Source: Flavobacteriaceae bacterium
GTDB taxonomy: Bacteria; Bacteroidota; Bacteroidia; Flavobacteriales; Flavobacteriaceae
Assembly: GCA_027080135.1 (NCBI GenBank)
Contig: JALWUJ010000104.1
Span: 1 to 53,979 of the forward strand
Reading direction: 5' to 3'
DNA: 53,979 bases
Position 1 is the stretch's first letter, and every line of letters starts with the position of its first letter. The notes beneath the pieces are model-generated. The model did not search any database. It was not told the origin of the DNA and saw nothing but the letters and a program-made list of their open reading frames with translations. This document shows positions 3,137 to 10,746 of the stretch, one piece after another. Made by a program: the position numbers and the translations under genes.

Positions 3137-4741
3137 ATGTCTGTAAAAACAATACCTTACGCTGAAACTGGATATTTTTCGAAATTAGTTTGCGATTATT
3201 TAGCCGAAAAACTGGAGTTACAATCGTTTTATAGCCGTTTTCCGAAATTGGAGAATTTTGAGGGGCAGTTTACAGAAAAAAAACGGTCGCTGAGTGGAGC
3301 CGAAGTGAACTCAAGATCTATTTTAGTTAATTCTCTAAATAACCAATACCAAAACATAACAGTTTCCGAAGCCACAAAAAACAACATCAACTCGCTTTCT
3401 AAAGATACTACATTCACCATAACCACAGGTCATCAACTCAACCTATTTACAGGTCCTTTATATTTTCTTTACAAGATATTTTCGGTGATTAATTTATCTG
3501 AAGAGTTGAATAAAAAACATTCCAACAATCATTTTGTTCCTGTTTATTGGATGGCTACGGAAGATCATGATTTTGATGAAATCAACTATTTTAATCTCTT
3601 CGGAAAGAAAGTTGAATGGAAACGAAATACCTCTGGAGCCGTTGGTGAATTGACAACTGAAGGTTTAGAAATGTTGTTAAATGAATTAAAGTTAAAGTTA
3701 GGAAACAGCGAAAATGCTCAAAAACTAACCGCACTTTTCTCTGAAGCTTATATCAAACACAACAATCTAACAGATGCTACTCGCTTTTTAGCCAACGAGC
3801 TTTTTTCTGACTACGGACTCGTAATCATCGATGGGAATGATAACAATTTAAAACAACAATTTATTCCATTTGCTGAAAAAGAATTGACTGAGAATTTTGC
3901 ATTCCATGTGATTAATGCAACCACAGAAAAGTTAGAGAAATTAGGATTTAAACGTCAGGTAAATCCGAGAGAAATCAACTTGTTTTATCTTAAAAAGAAT
4001 CTTCGGGAACGCATTATTGAAGAAAATGGAGTTTTTAAAATAAACAATACTCAAATTGTTTTTTCAAAAGAAGAAATTTTAAAAGAGTTACGCGAATTTC
4101 CAGAACGTTTTTCGCCCAATGCCTTGCTACGACCTTTGTTTCAGGAAGTTGTATTGCCTAATTTATGTTATGTTGGCGGTGGTGGTGAGTTGGCATATTG
4201 GTTTCAGCTAAAGGATTATTTTAAAGAAGTTGAGGTAACTTTTCCGATGTTATTACTTCGAAATTCGGTACTTTTAGTTCCGAAGAAACTTTCCAAAAAG
4301 CTAGAGAAATTAAATGAAACGATAGAAGCTTTATTCCTTTCCACTTACGAATTGGAGAAAAAACATACGCTTCAACTGTCCGAAGTAAACATAGATTTTA
4401 CACCACAACGAGAACATTTAAAAAAACAATTTAAAGACTTATATGAAGTTGCAAAAAAAACAGACCAATCCTTTTTAGGAGCTGTTGCAGCTCAAGAAAA
4501 AAAGCAAATCAATGGTTTAAATAACCTTGAAAAACGATTGTTAAAAGCAGAAAAACGAAAATTAGAGGATCACTTAGAACGCCTAACTTTCATTCAGTTT
4601 CAATTATTTCCGAAGGAAAGTTTACAAGAACGTACCGTTAATTTCTCTGAATTCTATTTGGAGTTTGGAGATGAATTACTCCAGAAATTAAAAGAAAATT
4701 TGGATCCTTTGGGGAATGAGTTTACGGTTTTGGAATTGTAA
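3137..4741 (+). CDS. bshC: Bacillithiol biosynthesis cysteine-adding enzyme BshC
   Basis: 534 aa; 'TGHQLNLFTGPLYFLYKIFSVI', 'PVYWMATEDHDFDEI', 'VGGGGELAYWFQLK' characteristic of BshC. Confidence 0.95.
   Translation: MSVKTIPYAETGYFSKLVCDYLAEKLELQSFYSRFPKLENFEGQFTEKKRSLSGAEVNSRSILVNSLNNQYQNITVSEATKNNINSLSKDTTFTITTGHQLNLFTGPLYFLYKIFSVINLSEELNKKHSNNHFVPVYWMATEDHDFDEINYFNLFGKKVEWKRNTSGAVGELTTEGLEMLLNELKLKLGNSENAQKLTALFSEAYIKHNNLTDATRFLANELFSDYGLVIIDGNDNNLKQQFIPFAEKELTENFAFHVINATTEKLEKLGFKRQVNPREINLFYLKKNLRERIIEENGVFKINNTQIVFSKEEILKELREFPERFSPNALLRPLFQEVVLPNLCYVGGGGELAYWFQLKDYFKEVEVTFPMLLLRNSVLLVPKKLSKKLEKLNETIEALFLSTYELEKKHTLQLSEVNIDFTPQREHLKKQFKDLYEVAKKTDQSFLGAVAAQEKKQINGLNNLEKRLLKAEKRKLEDHLERLTFIQFQLFPKESLQERTVNFSEFYLEFGDELLQKLKENLDPLGNEFTVLEL
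3284..3307 (+). repeat. Coding-embedded copy of GGTCRCTGAGYGRAGYCGAAGTG repeat
   Basis: cGGTCGCTGAGTGGAGCCGAAGTG; 19/23 matches to intergenic copy at 15536..15558. Confidence 0.55.
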
Positions 4742-4821: not shown

Positions 4822-5532
4822 TTACTCAATAATTCCTGTAAAAATTGCGATGTAATACAACCCTGTTAAGATAAAAACAACTCCTGCTAGGGTGCGCATT
4901 ACTTTTTCAATCTGTGTTATTCTAGTGTAAAAATATCCAACTTTACTTGCAGTAAATGCCAAAAGATAGGTGAATAAAATTACGGGTAAACCAGTGCCAA
5001 ATGAGAATATGATAGGGAGGTACAATCCTTTGGTTGAGGCAATGCTCATCGGAATTAGCATTCCGAAATATAGAGCAGCACTATAGGGGCAAAATGCCAA
5101 GGCAAAAACAAGTCCGATTAAAAATGAACCTAACAGCCCTTTGTCTTTGAATTTTTCGGAAAGCTTTTCTTTAAAATTTGTTTTCCCTAAGAAATTAAGT
5201 TTGATAATATTGAGTATTATCAATCCAACAATAATCAATAAAGGACCTAAATATTTTTCACCATTCTGATTGAAAAAACGTGCGATATGAAATTTACTCG
5301 CCCCAAAATATAAAATCAACCCGATGGTGGTGTAGCTAAATGCTCTTCCTAAAGAATAAAGCAAACCACTTAAAAAAACTTTCTTTTTGTTAGAAATATT
5401 TTTTGAAATAAATGCTGTCGCTGTAATATTTGTAGCTAAAGGACAAGGACTAATGGCGGTCATTAGCCCCAGTACCAAAGCGGATAAAATGGGAATATTA
5501 TAATTGTCTAATAGACTTTGTAATACATCCAT
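4822..5532 (-). CDS. ArsG-family / CcdA-like membrane transporter
   Basis: Polytopic 236 aa protein with 'AISPCPLAT' and 'AFCPYSAALYFG' cysteine motifs; adjacent to ArsF-like gene. Confidence 0.75.
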   Translation of the reverse strand: MDVLQSLLDNYNIPILSALVLGLMTAISPCPLATNITATAFISKNISNKKKVFLSGLLYSLGRAFSYTTIGLILYFGASKFHIARFFNQNGEKYLGPLLIIVGLIILNIIKLNFLGKTNFKEKLSEKFKDKGLLGSFLIGLVFALAFCPYSAALYFGMLIPMSIASTKGLYLPIIFSFGTGLPVILFTYLLAFTASKVGYFYTRITQIEKVMRTLAGVVFILTGLYYIAIFTGIIE

Positions 5533-5536
5533 TTTG

Positions 5537-5983
5537 CTAAATATTTTTTAATTCGGCGTCGATTTTTGATTTTAATTCTTTTGAAAACGCTTCTTGATCA
5601 CGTCCTTTTTCAAATGCAAAATCGGTTAAATTAATGTGTGTTTCTTTTCCGTTTTTTATCACATTTAAAAACAATGCTGTTCCGGTAGCTTCAAAAGATT
5701 CTGCAATTTTGTAGTTTTTTTCTTCATCTACATTGATGGCTTTAAAAACAATAGTTCCGTCTTTTTGTTCTTCGGAATAATGCGTATCTAAAGTGTATTT
5801 TGCACTGGCTTCGATGGCTTTGCAGGTAACACATCTGTGGGTTCCGTAAAAGTCGATGACTTCAATTTTGTTGGTGCTTGCTACGGCTTTGGCTTTGTTT
5901 TTATCTTGATTTTGAGCTTTTCCGTTACAAGAAAAAAATAGGATACTTACTGCGAATATTGATAGAAAGGTTAACTGTTTCAT
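5537..5983 (-). CDS. ArsF-family thioredoxin-like lipoprotein
   Basis: Lipobox 'ILFFSC'; 'IDFYGTHRCVTCKAIE' redox CxxC; 148 aa. Confidence 0.75.
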   Translation of the reverse strand: MKQLTFLSIFAVSILFFSCNGKAQNQDKNKAKAVASTNKIEVIDFYGTHRCVTCKAIEASAKYTLDTHYSEEQKDGTIVFKAINVDEEKNYKIAESFEATGTALFLNVIKNGKETHINLTDFAFEKGRDQEAFSKELKSKIDAELKNI

Positions 5984-6001
5984 AAGGATATATTTAATTA
6001 A

Positions 6002-6688
6002 TTATTGATTACAATTGGCTTTGTTTTTATTGAGGATATCTGTTTTAACGTAATCGTTTTTTAAAACAGGTTTCCATTGAAAATTTGTAATTTCGGTGAT
6101 GGTAAAATTATCTTTTGGATTGCTAGTCAGTAGTTTTTCTGAAAACTCATCTTCCATTTTTTTGAGCCTGTCTAAATCGCAAGCAGTCAATTCTCCTTTT
6201 ATCGCTTTAGCTCCAAGTAGATTAATTTCTTTGGGTTTAACACCCTTGTTTAATTGGACTTTTACCGCTTTTTTATTGTCTTTTCTTTGGATGATATAAA
6301 ACCCATTTTCGATAGTATTATCTACATAAAATGAATTGAACTGATAACGACCACCCGTCATATAAACCGCAACATCGGTAAGGCAAGGAGAACTTTTACT
6401 AACGATTCTTGTATTGGTTCGGTCTATGATTCCGTTGGGATACAATTCATTTAACCCTTCTTTAATTCCTAAAAAACCAAGTGCCAATCCATCACATAAA
6501 TGTCCGTGAAATTTTTCTAAATCGGATAAAGTTAATTCGTGTTTTAGGTTTAACCTTCCTTTAGAAAAATCGGTATCAATTACTTTTATAGAAGTTTTAG
6601 CATTGTCTGAAACTTCTGTAGTTGCTTGTTTTTGTTGACATCCCAAAAAGCTAATCGTAATTAATATAAAGAGTGCTGTTTTTTTCAT
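6002..6688 (-). CDS. FmdE-domain lipoprotein
   Basis: Lipobox 'ISFLGC'; 'LEKFHGHLCDGLALGFLGI' FmdE-type motif. Confidence 0.75.
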   Translation of the reverse strand: MKKTALFILITISFLGCQQKQATTEVSDNAKTSIKVIDTDFSKGRLNLKHELTLSDLEKFHGHLCDGLALGFLGIKEGLNELYPNGIIDRTNTRIVSKSSPCLTDVAVYMTGGRYQFNSFYVDNTIENGFYIIQRKDNKKAVKVQLNKGVKPKEINLLGAKAIKGELTACDLDRLKKMEDEFSEKLLTSNPKDNFTITEITNFQWKPVLKNDYVKTDILNKNKANCNQ

Positions 6689-6693
6689 AGGAC

Positions 6694-7095
6694 TTATAAA
6701 AATTCGATGGTTCCTTTTAATTCTGAAGATTTTGCAAGGGTATTGGTGATGGTTCCAAACTTTAAAATATTTTTATGAAGTAGGTTTAATTTCTTTTCAT
6801 CCATCGTAGATTTTACTTTTAAAGTGTATGAAAGTCTTTCCATAGAAGGGGGTGAATCGGTTCTTTCTCCATTAATTTCTACGATTGCTTTTTCATAATC
6901 AAATTTTAAGATTTCAGATAAACGCTCCACATTTTTAAGCATACACGCCGCAAGAGATGACAATAATAATTCGGCAGGATTTGGCAAATTTTCTTTTCTT
7001 CCAGCCGAAGCATCAAATTGAATGCTACTATTATTGGCTTCAGATTTTGCGATTCCACCTTTTAAACTTTCTGCTTTAATTTTATACGACAACAT
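6694..7095 (-). CDS. OsmC family protein
   Basis: 133 aa; 'NPAELLLSSLAACMLKNVERLSEIL' OsmC cysteine motif. Confidence 0.85.
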   Translation of the reverse strand: MLSYKIKAESLKGGIAKSEANNSSIQFDASAGRKENLPNPAELLLSSLAACMLKNVERLSEILKFDYEKAIVEINGERTDSPPSMERLSYTLKVKSTMDEKKLNLLHKNILKFGTITNTLAKSSELKGTIEFL

Positions 7096-7098
7096 ATA

Positions 7099-8076
7099 TT
7101 AGAGAATTATATTAAACAAATAGCCAGAAATGATGATACAAAGTGTTACTACTCCAAAGAAAATTCCGATGAGTTTAAAAGTCATTACTTTTTTTAGCAA
7201 CATTGCTTCTGGTAACGATAATCCGACTACACCCATCATAAAAGCGATGGCGGTACCAATTGGAATTCCTTTGGCAACCAGCACTTGAACAATCGGTAAA
7301 ATTCCGGAGGCGTTCGAATACATTGGTACTGCTAAAATGGTTGCTGCGGGAACTGCAAATAGGTTGTCTTTGCTCATATATTGTTCAAAAAATCCTTCGG
7401 GAATATATCCGTGCATCAATCCGCCAATGGCAATTCCTACGATTACATAAGGCACAATTCCTTTTAAAATATTGAGCACTTCATCCCAAATAATGGGTAA
7501 GCGTTGTTTAAAAGTTTGCTTTTCGGCAAGAAACTCGTCTTGTTCTTTTTTTGCATTTGCCAACACTTGTTGCACCCACGGTGTAAGGTAGCGTTCTAGT
7601 TTCAATTTTTGAAGAATGGCTCCTGAAATGGTTCCGAGTAAAATACCGCTGACTACATAAATCAGCGTCATTTTTACACCGAAAAGCCCGATGAACAATC
7701 CGATGGCAACTTCATTTACCAAAGGAGAAGTAACCAGAAATGCAAAGGTGACTCCGAGTGGAATTCCGCCTTTTACAAAACCAATAAATAAGGGTACAGA
7801 TGAGCAAGAACAAAAGGGAGTAACCACTCCGAAAAGACTTGCCATTAAATACTCAAAACCGTATAATCTTTTACGCGATAGAAAATTACGAACCTTGTCT
7901 ATTGGGAAATAACTGTTGACAATTCCCATTAAAAAAATGATAAAGAAAAGCAGTAATAATATTTTGGTGGTATCGTAAATAAAGAAGTTGAGAGCTTCGG
8001 CTAAACGTGCTCCTTTTTCTAAATTTAGGAGGTCAAAAACCAACCAATCGGCTATATGTTGAATCCAATCAAACAT
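7099..8076 (-). CDS. ArsP/DUF318-type permease
   Basis: 325 aa polytopic; 'GVVTPFCSCSSVPLFIGFVKGGIPLGVTFAFLVTSPLVNEVA' signature. Confidence 0.85.
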   Translation of the reverse strand: MFDWIQHIADWLVFDLLNLEKGARLAEALNFFIYDTTKILLLLFFIIFLMGIVNSYFPIDKVRNFLSRKRLYGFEYLMASLFGVVTPFCSCSSVPLFIGFVKGGIPLGVTFAFLVTSPLVNEVAIGLFIGLFGVKMTLIYVVSGILLGTISGAILQKLKLERYLTPWVQQVLANAKKEQDEFLAEKQTFKQRLPIIWDEVLNILKGIVPYVIVGIAIGGLMHGYIPEGFFEQYMSKDNLFAVPAATILAVPMYSNASGILPIVQVLVAKGIPIGTAIAFMMGVVGLSLPEAMLLKKVMTFKLIGIFFGVVTLCIIISGYLFNIIL

Positions 8077-8081
8077 TTAGA

Positions 8082-8459
8082 TTAATGGCATTTAGATTGC
8101 GAACAGCCACAACTTTCGGTTAGGACTATATTTGAAACATCTCCTTTAATAGGGAAGCCTTTTGACGCCCATTTAATAATTCCGTTTCGCATATTGTAAA
8201 CATTTTTATATCCAACATTCATTAGAAAGTAAGTAGTTCGTAAACTTCTTTCACCGCTTAGGCAAACCATTACAATTTCTTGATCTTTCAGAATTTCGGA
8301 GTAGCGTTCTTCGAATTCTTCAATAGGAATATTTAGATAGTTTGGTACATCAAAAGTTACATTTTTAACTTCAGATTTACTTCTAACATCTACAATTAAG
8401 GCTCCTTCTTTTACTTTTCCTAAAGTTGTTGTTGGACAAATTTCTATAGCTTGTGTCAT
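8082..8459 (-). CDS. Rhodanese-like domain protein
   Basis: 125 aa; 'GALIVDVRSKSEV', active-site-like 'VMVCLSGERSLRT'; C-terminal 'ESCGCSQSKCH'. Confidence 0.85.
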   Translation of the reverse strand: MTQAIEICPTTTLGKVKEGALIVDVRSKSEVKNVTFDVPNYLNIPIEEFEERYSEILKDQEIVMVCLSGERSLRTTYFLMNVGYKNVYNMRNGIIKWASKGFPIKGDVSNIVLTESCGCSQSKCH

Positions 8460-8464
8460 TTTGT

Positions 8465-8701
8465 TTATTTTAAAAGTTCTATGATTTCGTTTTTACTTGG
8501 CACTCTTCCTTTGATGGTGATTTTTTCATCAATAACGACCACGGGAGTGGACAATACGTTGTATTCCATTATTTTCATAATGTCTTCTACTTTAATGACT
8601 TGTGCATCGATGTTATTTTCTTTTACTACTTCTTCAACTAGGGCTGTGGTGGTTTTACACTTTGGACAACCTGTTCCTAAAATTTTTATTATTGTACTCA
8701 T
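8465..8701 (-). CDS. Redox-active small thioredoxin family protein
   Basis: 78 aa; 'KILGTGCPKCKTT' and 'STPVVVIDEKI'. Confidence 0.85.
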   Translation of the reverse strand: MSTIIKILGTGCPKCKTTTALVEEVVKENNIDAQVIKVEDIMKIMEYNVLSTPVVVIDEKITIKGRVPSKNEIIELLK

Positions 8702-8715
8702 TTTTATATTTTGTT

Positions 8716-8733
8716 TATCGCAAATAGGCGATA
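8716..8733. promoter_or_regulatory. Putative ArsR-type operator (internal)
   Basis: TATCGCAAATAGGCGATA inverted repeat, near-identical to 9091..9108. Confidence 0.6.
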
Positions 8734-8750
8734 TGATTAATTAAATTTTT

Positions 8751-9086
8751 TTAGCATTTATTTGTTTCACACGAATTATTGATGGCAAAAAGACTTTCAA
8801 ATAATAATTTTGCTTTCGTCCAATTTTCTTGATTTATGCGATAATTAATTTTGGGTGGATTTAACTCCCCTTCAATTAATCCTGCGTTTTTTAATTCTTT
8901 AATATGTTGCGAAATGGTAGATTGTGCTAAAGGCAGCACTTCCATTAAATCACCGGTACACGAACAAGATTGATTCTCTAAAAATTTTAAAATTGCAATT
9001 CTGGTCGGGTGGGCTAATGCTTTCGCTAATTTAGCTAAGTCTTCTGTTGACTCCTCGTAATTGATATGTTCTAAAGTTCGTTTCAT
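8751..9086 (-). CDS. ArsR-family winged-helix metalloregulator
   Basis: 111 aa; 'KALAHPTRIAILKFLENQSCSCTGDLMEVLPLAQSTISQHIKELKNAGLI', C-terminal Cys residues. Confidence 0.85.
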   Translation of the reverse strand: MKRTLEHINYEESTEDLAKLAKALAHPTRIAILKFLENQSCSCTGDLMEVLPLAQSTISQHIKELKNAGLIEGELNPPKINYRINQENWTKAKLLFESLFAINNSCETNKC

Positions 9087-9090
9087 TTCT

Positions 9091-9108
9091 TATCGCAAAT
9101 ATACGATA
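9091..9108. promoter_or_regulatory. Putative ArsR-type operator overlapping -7 box (TATATTTG, minus strand)
   Basis: TATCGCAAATATACGATA palindrome just upstream of the arsR-like start codon. Confidence 0.65.
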
Positions 9109-9202
9109 GGTTTTTGAAATGGCAAATAATTTTAGTTAATATTTGTTAGCTTTTTATTCTTTAAATTTTCCTAAAAACCATTTCGCAAAAGTTTTTTTAC
9201 CT

Positions 9203-9213: not shown

Positions 9214-10746
9214 ATGCAAAACAACGTCCTTATTTTAGATTTCGGTTCGCAATACACTCAACTCATTGCAAGACGAGTTAGAGAGTTAAATATTTACTGC
9301 GAAATCCATCCCTTCAACAAAGTTCCTGAAAACATAGAAAACTTTAAAGCCGTGATTTTATCGGGAAGTCCATTTTCGGTTCGTGCTGAAAACGCTCCAC
9401 ATCCAGATCTTTCAAAAATCAAAAGGCATAAACCTCTTTTAGGAGTTTGTTATGGTGCTCAATATTTAGCACATTTTAACGGCGGAAGTGTAGAACCTTC
9501 TAACATTAGAGAGTACGGACGTGCTAATCTTTCTGAAATTTTAGAAAACGAAACCTTATTCAATGGCTTTGAAAAAGACAGTCAAGTTTGGATGAGTCAT
9601 AGCGACACCATTGCGAAACTTCCTGAAAACGGAATCCGTTTAGCGAGTACAAAAGATGTAGCAAATGCCGCCTATCGAATTGATGGAGAAGAAACCTATG
9701 CGATTCAATTTCATCCAGAAGTATATCATACCACCTTCGGAAAGCAATTATTAGAAAACTTTTTAGTAAACATCGCTAAGGTAGAACAAACGTGGACACC
9801 AGCTGCTTTTGTAGAAACTACGGTTTCAGAAATTAAAGCAAAAGTTGGAAACGATAAAGTAGTTTTAGGATTGAGCGGTGGAGTAGATTCTACCGTTGCA
9901 GCGGTTTTATTGCACAAAGCAATCGGTAAAAATTTATATTGTATTTTCGTAAATAACGGCTTGCTTCGGAAAGATGAATTCCAAAATGTACTCGATCAAT
10001 ACGAACATATGGGCTTGAATGTAAAAGGTGTGGATGCTTCGGAACGGTTTTTAGAAGCCCTAAAAGGAATTACCGATCCAGAACTGAAACGTAAAGCAAT
10101 CGGACGTGTTTTTATAGAAGTTTTTGATGATGAAGCACATTTGGTAAAAGATGTGCATTGGTTGGCACAAGGAACTATTTATCCAGATGTAATTGAAAGT
10201 GTTTCGGTTACAGGAGGACCTTCAGCAACCATAAAATCGCACCACAATGTAGGAGGATTACCCGATTTTATGAAACTTAAAATTGTGGAACCTTTGCGAA
10301 TGATTTTTAAGGATGAAGTAAGACGAGTAGGAAAAGAAATGGGAATTGATGACGAACTTTTAGGAAGACATCCTTTTCCAGGACCAGGATTAGGAATTAG
10401 AATTTTGGGAGATGTAACTGCTGAGAAAGTAAGAGTTTTACAAGAAGTAGATGCTATTTTCGTCAACGGATTAAAAAAGTGGAATTTGTACGATAAAGTT
10501 TGGCAAGCAGGAGCAATGTTGCTTCCCGTAGATAGTGTAGGAGTAATGGGTGACGAACGTACATACGAAAAAGTAGTAGCTTTAAGAGCTGTAGAATCTA
10601 CCGATGGAATGACAGCCGATTGGGTAGATTTACCATATAAATTTTTGCAAGAAACCTCTAACCATATAATAAACCGAGTAAAAGGCGTTAATAGAGTAGT
10701 ATATGATATAAGTTCGAAACCACCAGCAACTATTGAGTGGGAGTAG
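9214..10746 (+). CDS. guaA: GMP synthase (glutamine-hydrolysing)
   Basis: '[19 protein letters not shown]', 'LGVCYGAQ', '[14 protein letters not shown]', C-terminal '[12 protein letters not shown]'. Confidence 0.97.

Follow-up and report, generated by a model that had tools for sequence, protein, structure and literature searches.

Examination of a 53,979-nucleotide stretch of DNA from a Flavobacteriaceae bacterium (contig JALWUJ010000104.1 of assembly GCA_027080135.1; the whole stretch is referred to here as the window) reveals an eight-gene minus-strand operon that is very probably devoted to arsenical resistance. ArsE, ArsF and ArsG all exceed their NCBIfam cut-offs within this one operon, alongside an ArsP_1 permease, and the same operon encodes a lipoprotein of the FmdE family. 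ArsEFG and ArsP are already known; what is new is a recurrent and apparently undescribed FmdE accessory, carried here on a complete, regulated copy of the system. No mention of FmdE tied to arsenic operons was found in the literature searched, most subscription papers lying outside that search. The recurrence of FmdE beside arsenic genes in the Bacteroidota, and separately in an ars operon of the Bacillota, offers a testable function for a family that is mostly without a known one.

Organization of the operon

The eight open reading frames (ORFs) span positions 4822–9086, as read from the sequence and the ORF list, and are given below from the promoter onwards together with their control sites. 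Families were assigned with Pfam and NCBIfam, the latter judged against the model cut-offs, and in gene order are HTH_metalloreg, Thioredoxin_3 with MTH895/ArsE, Rhodanese, ArsP_1, OsmC, FmdE, ArsF (NF040494) and ArsG (NF040495).

9123..9126, minus strand: TTTG, 19 nt ahead of the −7 box; possible −33 promoter element of the operon (sequence reading)
9092..9107, minus strand: operator 1, ATCG-TATATTTG-CGAT, enclosing the −7 box TATATTTG; 5 nt ahead of the arsR start codon
8751..9086, minus strand: arsR, ArsR/SmtB-family repressor (Pfam HTH_5; NCBIfam NF033788, 67 bits, cut-off 55)
8717..8732, minus strand: operator 2, ATCG-CCTATTTG-CGAT, inside the arsR-arsE gap (palindrome search; place kept in most relatives)
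8465..8701, minus strand: arsE-like small thioredoxin, 78 aa, CPKC (TIGR00412 MTH895/ArsE family, 110.9 bits, cut-off 62)
8082..8459, minus strand: rhodanese-like cytosolic protein, conserved cysteines in its tail, SCGCSQSKCH (Pfam Rhodanese)
7099..8076, minus strand: arsP-like permease, TPFCSCSS (Pfam ArsP_1, 231.6 bits)
6694..7095, minus strand: OsmC-family protein (Pfam OsmC, 46 bits)
6002..6688, minus strand: FmdE-domain lipoprotein (Pfam FmdE, 69.6 bits)
5537..5983, minus strand: arsF-like thioredoxin-fold lipoprotein, CVTC (NF040494, 107.8 bits, cut-off 60)
4822..5532, minus strand: arsG-like CcdA/DsbD-family membrane protein, SPCP and FCPY (NF040495, 306.1 bits, cut-off 200; DsbD_2, 78.6 bits)

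The intergenic gaps from arsR onwards are 49, 5, 5, 3, 5, 18 and 4 nt, and because of this close spacing a single transcript for all eight genes is likely. The original prediction, made from the sequence alone, had proposed the same eight minus-strand genes, and every motif that it quoted is present (CPKC, SCGCSQSKCH, TPFCSCSS, CVTC, SPCP and FCPY), as are lipoprotein signal peptides on both the FmdE and ArsF proteins; its ArsP-, ArsF- and ArsG-type identities are borne out by Pfam and NCBIfam. Some details require correction. It extended the operon to 9108, whereas coding ends at 9086 and positions 9092–9107 form an operator; it described most gaps as 3–20 nt, which suits six of the seven (3–18 nt) but not the 49 nt between arsR and the thioredoxin gene, where the second operator lies; and it recognized the 78-aa CPKC thioredoxin but missed its membership of the ArsE family.

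Operators and promoter

The palindrome ATCG-N8-CGAT is present in exactly two copies in the window, one before arsR and one before arsE, and there are several reasons to regard these as operators. First, the spacer of operator 1, TATATTTG, corresponds to the −7 consensus TAnnTTTG, with TTTG positioned 19 nt upstream, the full Bacteroidota promoter consensus being TTTG-N19-21-TAnnTTTG; this consensus was applied instead of a sigma-70 promoter scan, which gave matches at chance level only. Second, the form ATCGTAnnTTTGCGAT has a single occurrence in the whole genome. Third, comparable sites occupy matching places in related cassettes, one group having ATCG-N8-CGAT and a second TTCG-N8-CGAA (the chance expectation for a looser operator pattern there is about 0.1 per 130 nt). 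An operator-type site is present in 17 of the 26 ArsR-like upstream regions examined, with the spacer being TAnnTTTG in 14 of those 17, and a second operator in the arsR-arsE gap is also found in most relatives.

Because the −7 box forms the operator spacer so consistently, the ArsR repressor would be expected to cover it. These two conserved putative operators, one of them enclosing the promoter −7 box, are the strongest regulatory evidence, and control by ArsR, as first predicted, is well supported. The window ArsR contains cysteines C41 and C43 (as CSC) together with C-terminal C106 and C111, whereas in most relatives a CC pair and one more Cys stand in their place, so that the ArsR ligand cysteines may differ between them.

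Recurrence of the gene set and its link to arsenic

Scanning of species genomes with patterns built from the window FmdE lipoprotein identified 31 loci (numbered with the prefix L, as are other related loci), all from Bacteroidota by their record titles, although this sample leans towards close relatives. arsF and/or arsG lie beside FmdE in 25 of the 31, with FmdE before them in 12 and after them in 13; three of the remaining six run up to the end of the DNA that was fetched, and the other three, L038, L044 and L045, are truly without arsF and arsG. For 22 of the 31, the fetched DNA includes ArsP. Culturable species that carry the cassette include Yeosuana marina (L036), Maribacter luteus (L041) and Putridiphycobacter roseus (L040). 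Two further samples are less biased than this pattern scan. An ArsG-first sample of 399 Bacteroidota genomes has ArsG above the cut-off in eight, including the window's own; the other seven were fetched along with G184, a genome from the order sample, and arsE and arsF adjoin arsG in all eight of these, with an ArsP-like permease nearby in most. In the FmdE-first sample, G041, G242 and G473 have a clear FmdE of the window type, with ArsP and an ArsE-like thioredoxin close by and no ArsF or ArsG.

A core of arsE, arsF and arsG, mostly accompanied by arsR and a permease of the ArsP type, recurs in Bacteroidota genomes and plasmids, and since the same genes are found together so widely, the set is not a chance grouping. 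A neighbourhood survey set beforehand therefore bears out the co-occurrence anticipated beyond the organism's own genome, but not the idea that OsmC and peroxide handling are a core part, OsmC being on only 5 of the 31 FmdE loci. FmdE, ArsF and ArsG show correlated pairwise distances (0.78–0.86), as expected for co-travelling genes, although common descent alone can yield the same result.

A connection with arsenic, also foreseen, is substantiated by ACR3 and ArsC inside some related cassettes. ACR3 and thioredoxin-type ArsC-like genes are situated between the rhodanese and ArsP genes in L038 and L042, and an ArsC-like gene lies inside cassette L056. The order on a Prevotella plasmid is arsR-arsF-arsG-arsE-arsP-arsC-acr3, and on a Fulvitalea plasmid arsR-arsE-arsF-arsG-permease. 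An Alicyclobacillus plasmid (Bacillota) has the arrangement arsD-arsA-arsA-x-FmdE-arsR-arsB-arsC-arsC-trxB, with FmdE at L079:5932-6585; ArsF and ArsG are not in the ars stretch shown. The window's own genome contains a separate ArsR-DUF6428-ArsC-like-ACR3 operon (DUF6428 being assigned by likeness to a gene of L032), and because this already serves inorganic arsenic, an organoarsenical is the likelier target of the window operon.

A candidate electron relay

In alignments of relatives, the CPKC cysteines C12 and C15 of the ArsE-like thioredoxin are invariant (19/19), as are the CVTC cysteines C51 and C54 of ArsF (24/24) and C30 and C148 of ArsG (24/24), the last of these proteins having a DsbD_2/DsbD_TM domain. 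The ArsE-like thioredoxin matches PDB 1ilo (MTH895); a PDB sequence search with ArsG and ArsF gave no match, and the AlphaFold model of ArsG has a predicted local distance difference test (pLDDT) score of 45.5, too low for fold assignment. The suggested electron path from thioredoxin via ArsG to ArsF is consistent with the invariant pairs C12/C15, C30/C148 and C51/C54, and we consider an ArsE-ArsG-ArsF relay probable; the last step of the path as originally drawn, from ArsF to FmdE, is one possibility only, FmdE not being obligate. Since ArsG has, as C30 and C148, the invariant pair of membrane cysteines typical of CcdA/DsbD proteins, it may be an electron carrier that databases misname as an 'efflux permease'. 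If so, the annotation would need correcting, and arsenic defence would be tied to thiol redox in the envelope. Some ArsE-like thioredoxins in relatives (L056 and L033) bear Cys-rich tails.

A comparable chain is experimentally established in pneumococcus, where it runs from thioredoxin to CcdA, to the Etrx lipoprotein and on to the MsrAB2 lipoprotein (PMC3914529). The relay of the window would work in a similar way, from a cytosolic thioredoxin through a CcdA-type protein to a thioredoxin lipoprotein and a client lipoprotein. The pneumococcal client is however a methionine sulfoxide reductase rather than FmdE, and there is no ArsR or ArsP.

ArsP-like permease and rhodanese

The C(S/T)C motif of the permease is C89-S-C91, and both cysteines are kept in 22 of 23 sequences. 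A tPF before the CSC is the motif of ArsP cluster 2 (Yang et al. 2015; PMC4435449), and it is carried by the window permease (TPFCSCSS). The organoarsenical(III) permease ArsP of Campylobacter jejuni shares both the ArsP_1 family and the C(S/T)C motif. NCBIfam also gives sub-cut-off matches of the window permease to the SO_0444 Cu/Zn family and to SaoE (SaoE 130.6 bits, cut-off 325). SaoE is nonetheless its nearest NCBIfam model, and the SAO/Tso selenoprotein operons (Haft and colleagues) have a rhodanese/DsbD theme in common with the window; such a system was rejected, all Sao and Tso models scoring below cut-off, and no in-frame UGA was seen in the window's eight genes.

C66 of the rhodanese is conserved in 15 of 15 sequences and the tail cysteines C117, C119 and C124 in 14 of them, a Cys-rich tail being found in nearly all relatives. 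Some cassettes have a second, exported rhodanese besides the cytosolic one.

The FmdE lipoprotein

The window FmdE has a lipobox cysteine (C17), metal ligands H61, H63, C65 and C102, and an extra cysteine pair, C170/C226. The four ligands are invariant in all 35 aligned sequences and correspond to His15, His17, Cys19 and Cys55, which bind the metal in the solved structure 2glz (PMC2954224). The structure model (pLDDT 85.5) is matched by Foldseek to 2gvi (E 5.7e-7) and 2glz (3.8e-6), and the protein shares the core fold and His-His-Cys-Cys metal site of the family (PF02663; 2glz, 2gvi and 3d00); it differs from these structures in being a lipoprotein, in lacking the C-terminal zinc finger, in having the C170/C226 pair and in its ars-operon location. 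The lipobox cysteine is invariant across the Bacteroidota set except in a fused form (L090). Relative to thioredoxin, the FmdE fold is circularly permuted (PMC2954224). A genome-wide search of the window's own genome found no second FmdE, only the operon copy. A role in formylmethanofuran metabolism was rejected, Pfam revealing no fmd partner genes in the operon.

C170 and C226 are both present in 29 sequences and both absent in five, one further sequence being truncated, which suggests that they form a disulfide. That this disulfide depends on ArsF was considered and rejected: L069 has no pair despite having ArsF and ArsG, while L038, L044, L045 and L090 have the pair without ArsF and ArsG. 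Because the pair does not follow ArsF/ArsG, the disulfide more probably has a structural role than one as an ArsF client.

In L090:7720-9015 (minus strand) and L060:7290-8351 (plus strand), a secreted alpha-acetolactate-decarboxylase-like domain is fused to FmdE, beside the thioredoxin and ArsP genes; in L090 a second alpha-acetolactate-decarboxylase-like gene adjoins the fusion gene.

Proposed function and alternatives

We lean towards an ArsEFG-type resistance operon, induced by arsenicals, that operates by the relay and FmdE mechanism proposed here. To the gene identities, operators, conserved redox and metal-site residues and recurrence, all read from sequence, this model adds an inducer, a direction of electron flow, an FmdE substrate and a pairing of FmdE with ArsF, which we infer as follows. 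ArsR would repress the operon from operator 1, over the −7 box, and operator 2, before arsE, until binding of a trivalent (organo)arsenical to the repressor's cysteines releases it. ArsP would export the trivalent organoarsenical into the periplasm, while ArsE would pass electrons from the cytosolic thioredoxin system to C30/C148 of ArsG, which would reduce the exported thioredoxin lipoprotein ArsF at its CVTC motif. Reduced ArsF would maintain periplasmic thiol or metal-site proteins in a reduced form competent to deal with arsenicals. Likeliest among local clients is the FmdE lipoprotein, which has a His-His-Cys-Cys site and would bind or process what ArsP exports; the rhodanese with its three-Cys tail is a likely cytosolic sulfur or arsenic carrier. 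Tentatively, then, FmdE may be a client of ArsF. More doubtful still is the fuller proposal that it is a new periplasmic arsenical-handling protein, kept reduced via ArsE-ArsG-ArsF, at whose His2-Cys2 site the organoarsenical delivered by ArsP is bound or transformed; if true, one branch of FmdE proteins would gain a function outside methanogenesis, and arsenic defence would be completed outside the cytoplasm.

Several observations weigh against this model. FmdE lies beside ArsG in only one of the eight other ArsG-bearing genomes (G184) and is absent there in seven; it occurs without ArsF/ArsG in L038, L088, L089 and L090, such that ArsF is not its sole possible partner; the obvious candidate client disulfide, C170/C226, does not track ArsF/ArsG; CDF-type metal transporters are present in some cassettes, and arsenic may not be the only ligand; and the published role of ArsG is that of an efflux permease. 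The FmdE lipoprotein is a real accessory of the ars cassette, not an obligate one, and its association is, if anything, tighter with ArsP than with ArsF/ArsG.

The published role belongs to a different view of ArsEFG, that of Shewanella putrefaciens, in which nitroreduction is followed by efflux (Chen, Zhang and Rosen 2019, cited in PMC9144182). Applied here, ArsE and ArsF would reduce the nitro groups of aromatic arsenicals, ArsG would export the resulting amino-aromatic As(III), and FmdE would be a bystander. Comparison through family models shows ArsE, ArsF and ArsG all present and linked, as in S. putrefaciens 200, and the NCBIfam names agree with that view ('nitrophenyl compound nitroreductase subunit ArsF' and 'aromatic aminobenezylarsenical efflux permease ArsG'). 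It seems unlikely, however, for this operon: ArsG belongs to the CcdA/DsbD family, with the invariant pair of membrane cysteines found in electron carriers, ArsE and ArsF match only thioredoxin families in Pfam, with no flavin domain, a dedicated ArsP-type exporter is already in the operon, and nitroaromatic arsenicals are presumably rarely met by environmental bacteria. The window also adds to the Shewanella set an ArsR with mapped operators, ArsP, the Cys-tailed rhodanese, OsmC and the FmdE lipoprotein.

Two other explanations place arsenic in a lesser role. That the operon answers general metal(loid) stress in the envelope, with FmdE a periplasmic chaperone of zinc or another metal for a transporter and the ArsP-like permease moving metal instead of organoarsenical, accords with the general placement of FmdE-family genes, most of which adjoin metal-ion transporters (PMC2954224), with CDF transporters in or by cassettes L036, L037, L057 and L090, and with the sub-cut-off likeness of the permease to SO_0444 and SaoE. 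Linkage to ACR3, ArsC and ArsEFG indicates arsenic instead, and most loci, the window operon among them, have no CDF gene; we judge this explanation improbable, slightly more so than nitroreduction. Least probable is a sulfide/sulfane-sulfur stress operon, in which an ArsR-family persulfide sensor would govern the thioredoxin, rhodanese, OsmC, DsbD-like carrier and permease. The cytosolic and sometimes second, exported rhodaneses would suit it, as would an SQR-like FAD protein adjoining OsmC-FmdE in L037 and L044, but the ArsR match to the BigR model is weak (40.9 bits, cut-off 155), no persulfide dioxygenase is among the identified neighbours, several cassettes contain ACR3 and ArsC, and the permease is of the ArsP_1 family, not a sulfite exporter.

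Genomic setting and other features of related cassettes

The operon is flanked by two plus-strand genes:

3137-4741, plus strand: bshC, bacillithiol biosynthesis (TIGR03998, 466 bits)
9214-10746, plus strand: guaA, on the opposite operon flank from bshC

In several members of the family whose loci include sufficient flanking sequence (e.g. L098, L103, L104, L110, L112, L116 and L122) bshC is followed directly by guaA, and because the two are adjacent there without the operon, the cassette was probably gained at this site; the M14 peptidase-bshC order is conserved on the bshC side. The GC content of the operon is like that of its flanks, and a recent foreign origin is therefore not visible in composition. 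No tRNA, looked for as a sign of a mobile element, was found in the window.

Additional genes accompany some related cassettes. CDF-type cation transporters are in or beside FmdE cassettes at L036:6678-7565 (NCBIfam) and, by sequence likeness, at L037:581-1468, L057:5449-6342 and L090:5447-6337. The SQR-like FAD oxidoreductase genes that adjoin OsmC-FmdE are at L037:2253-3494 and L044:753-1982, and no ArsP was found in those cassettes. Finally, in many cassettes ArsP is separated from FmdE or ArsF by a DinB-superfamily gene, possibly encoding a thiol-S-transferase, examples being L088:7593-8045 (Pfam) and, by sequence likeness, L089:7573-8022, L054:6334-6789 and L049:846-1298.

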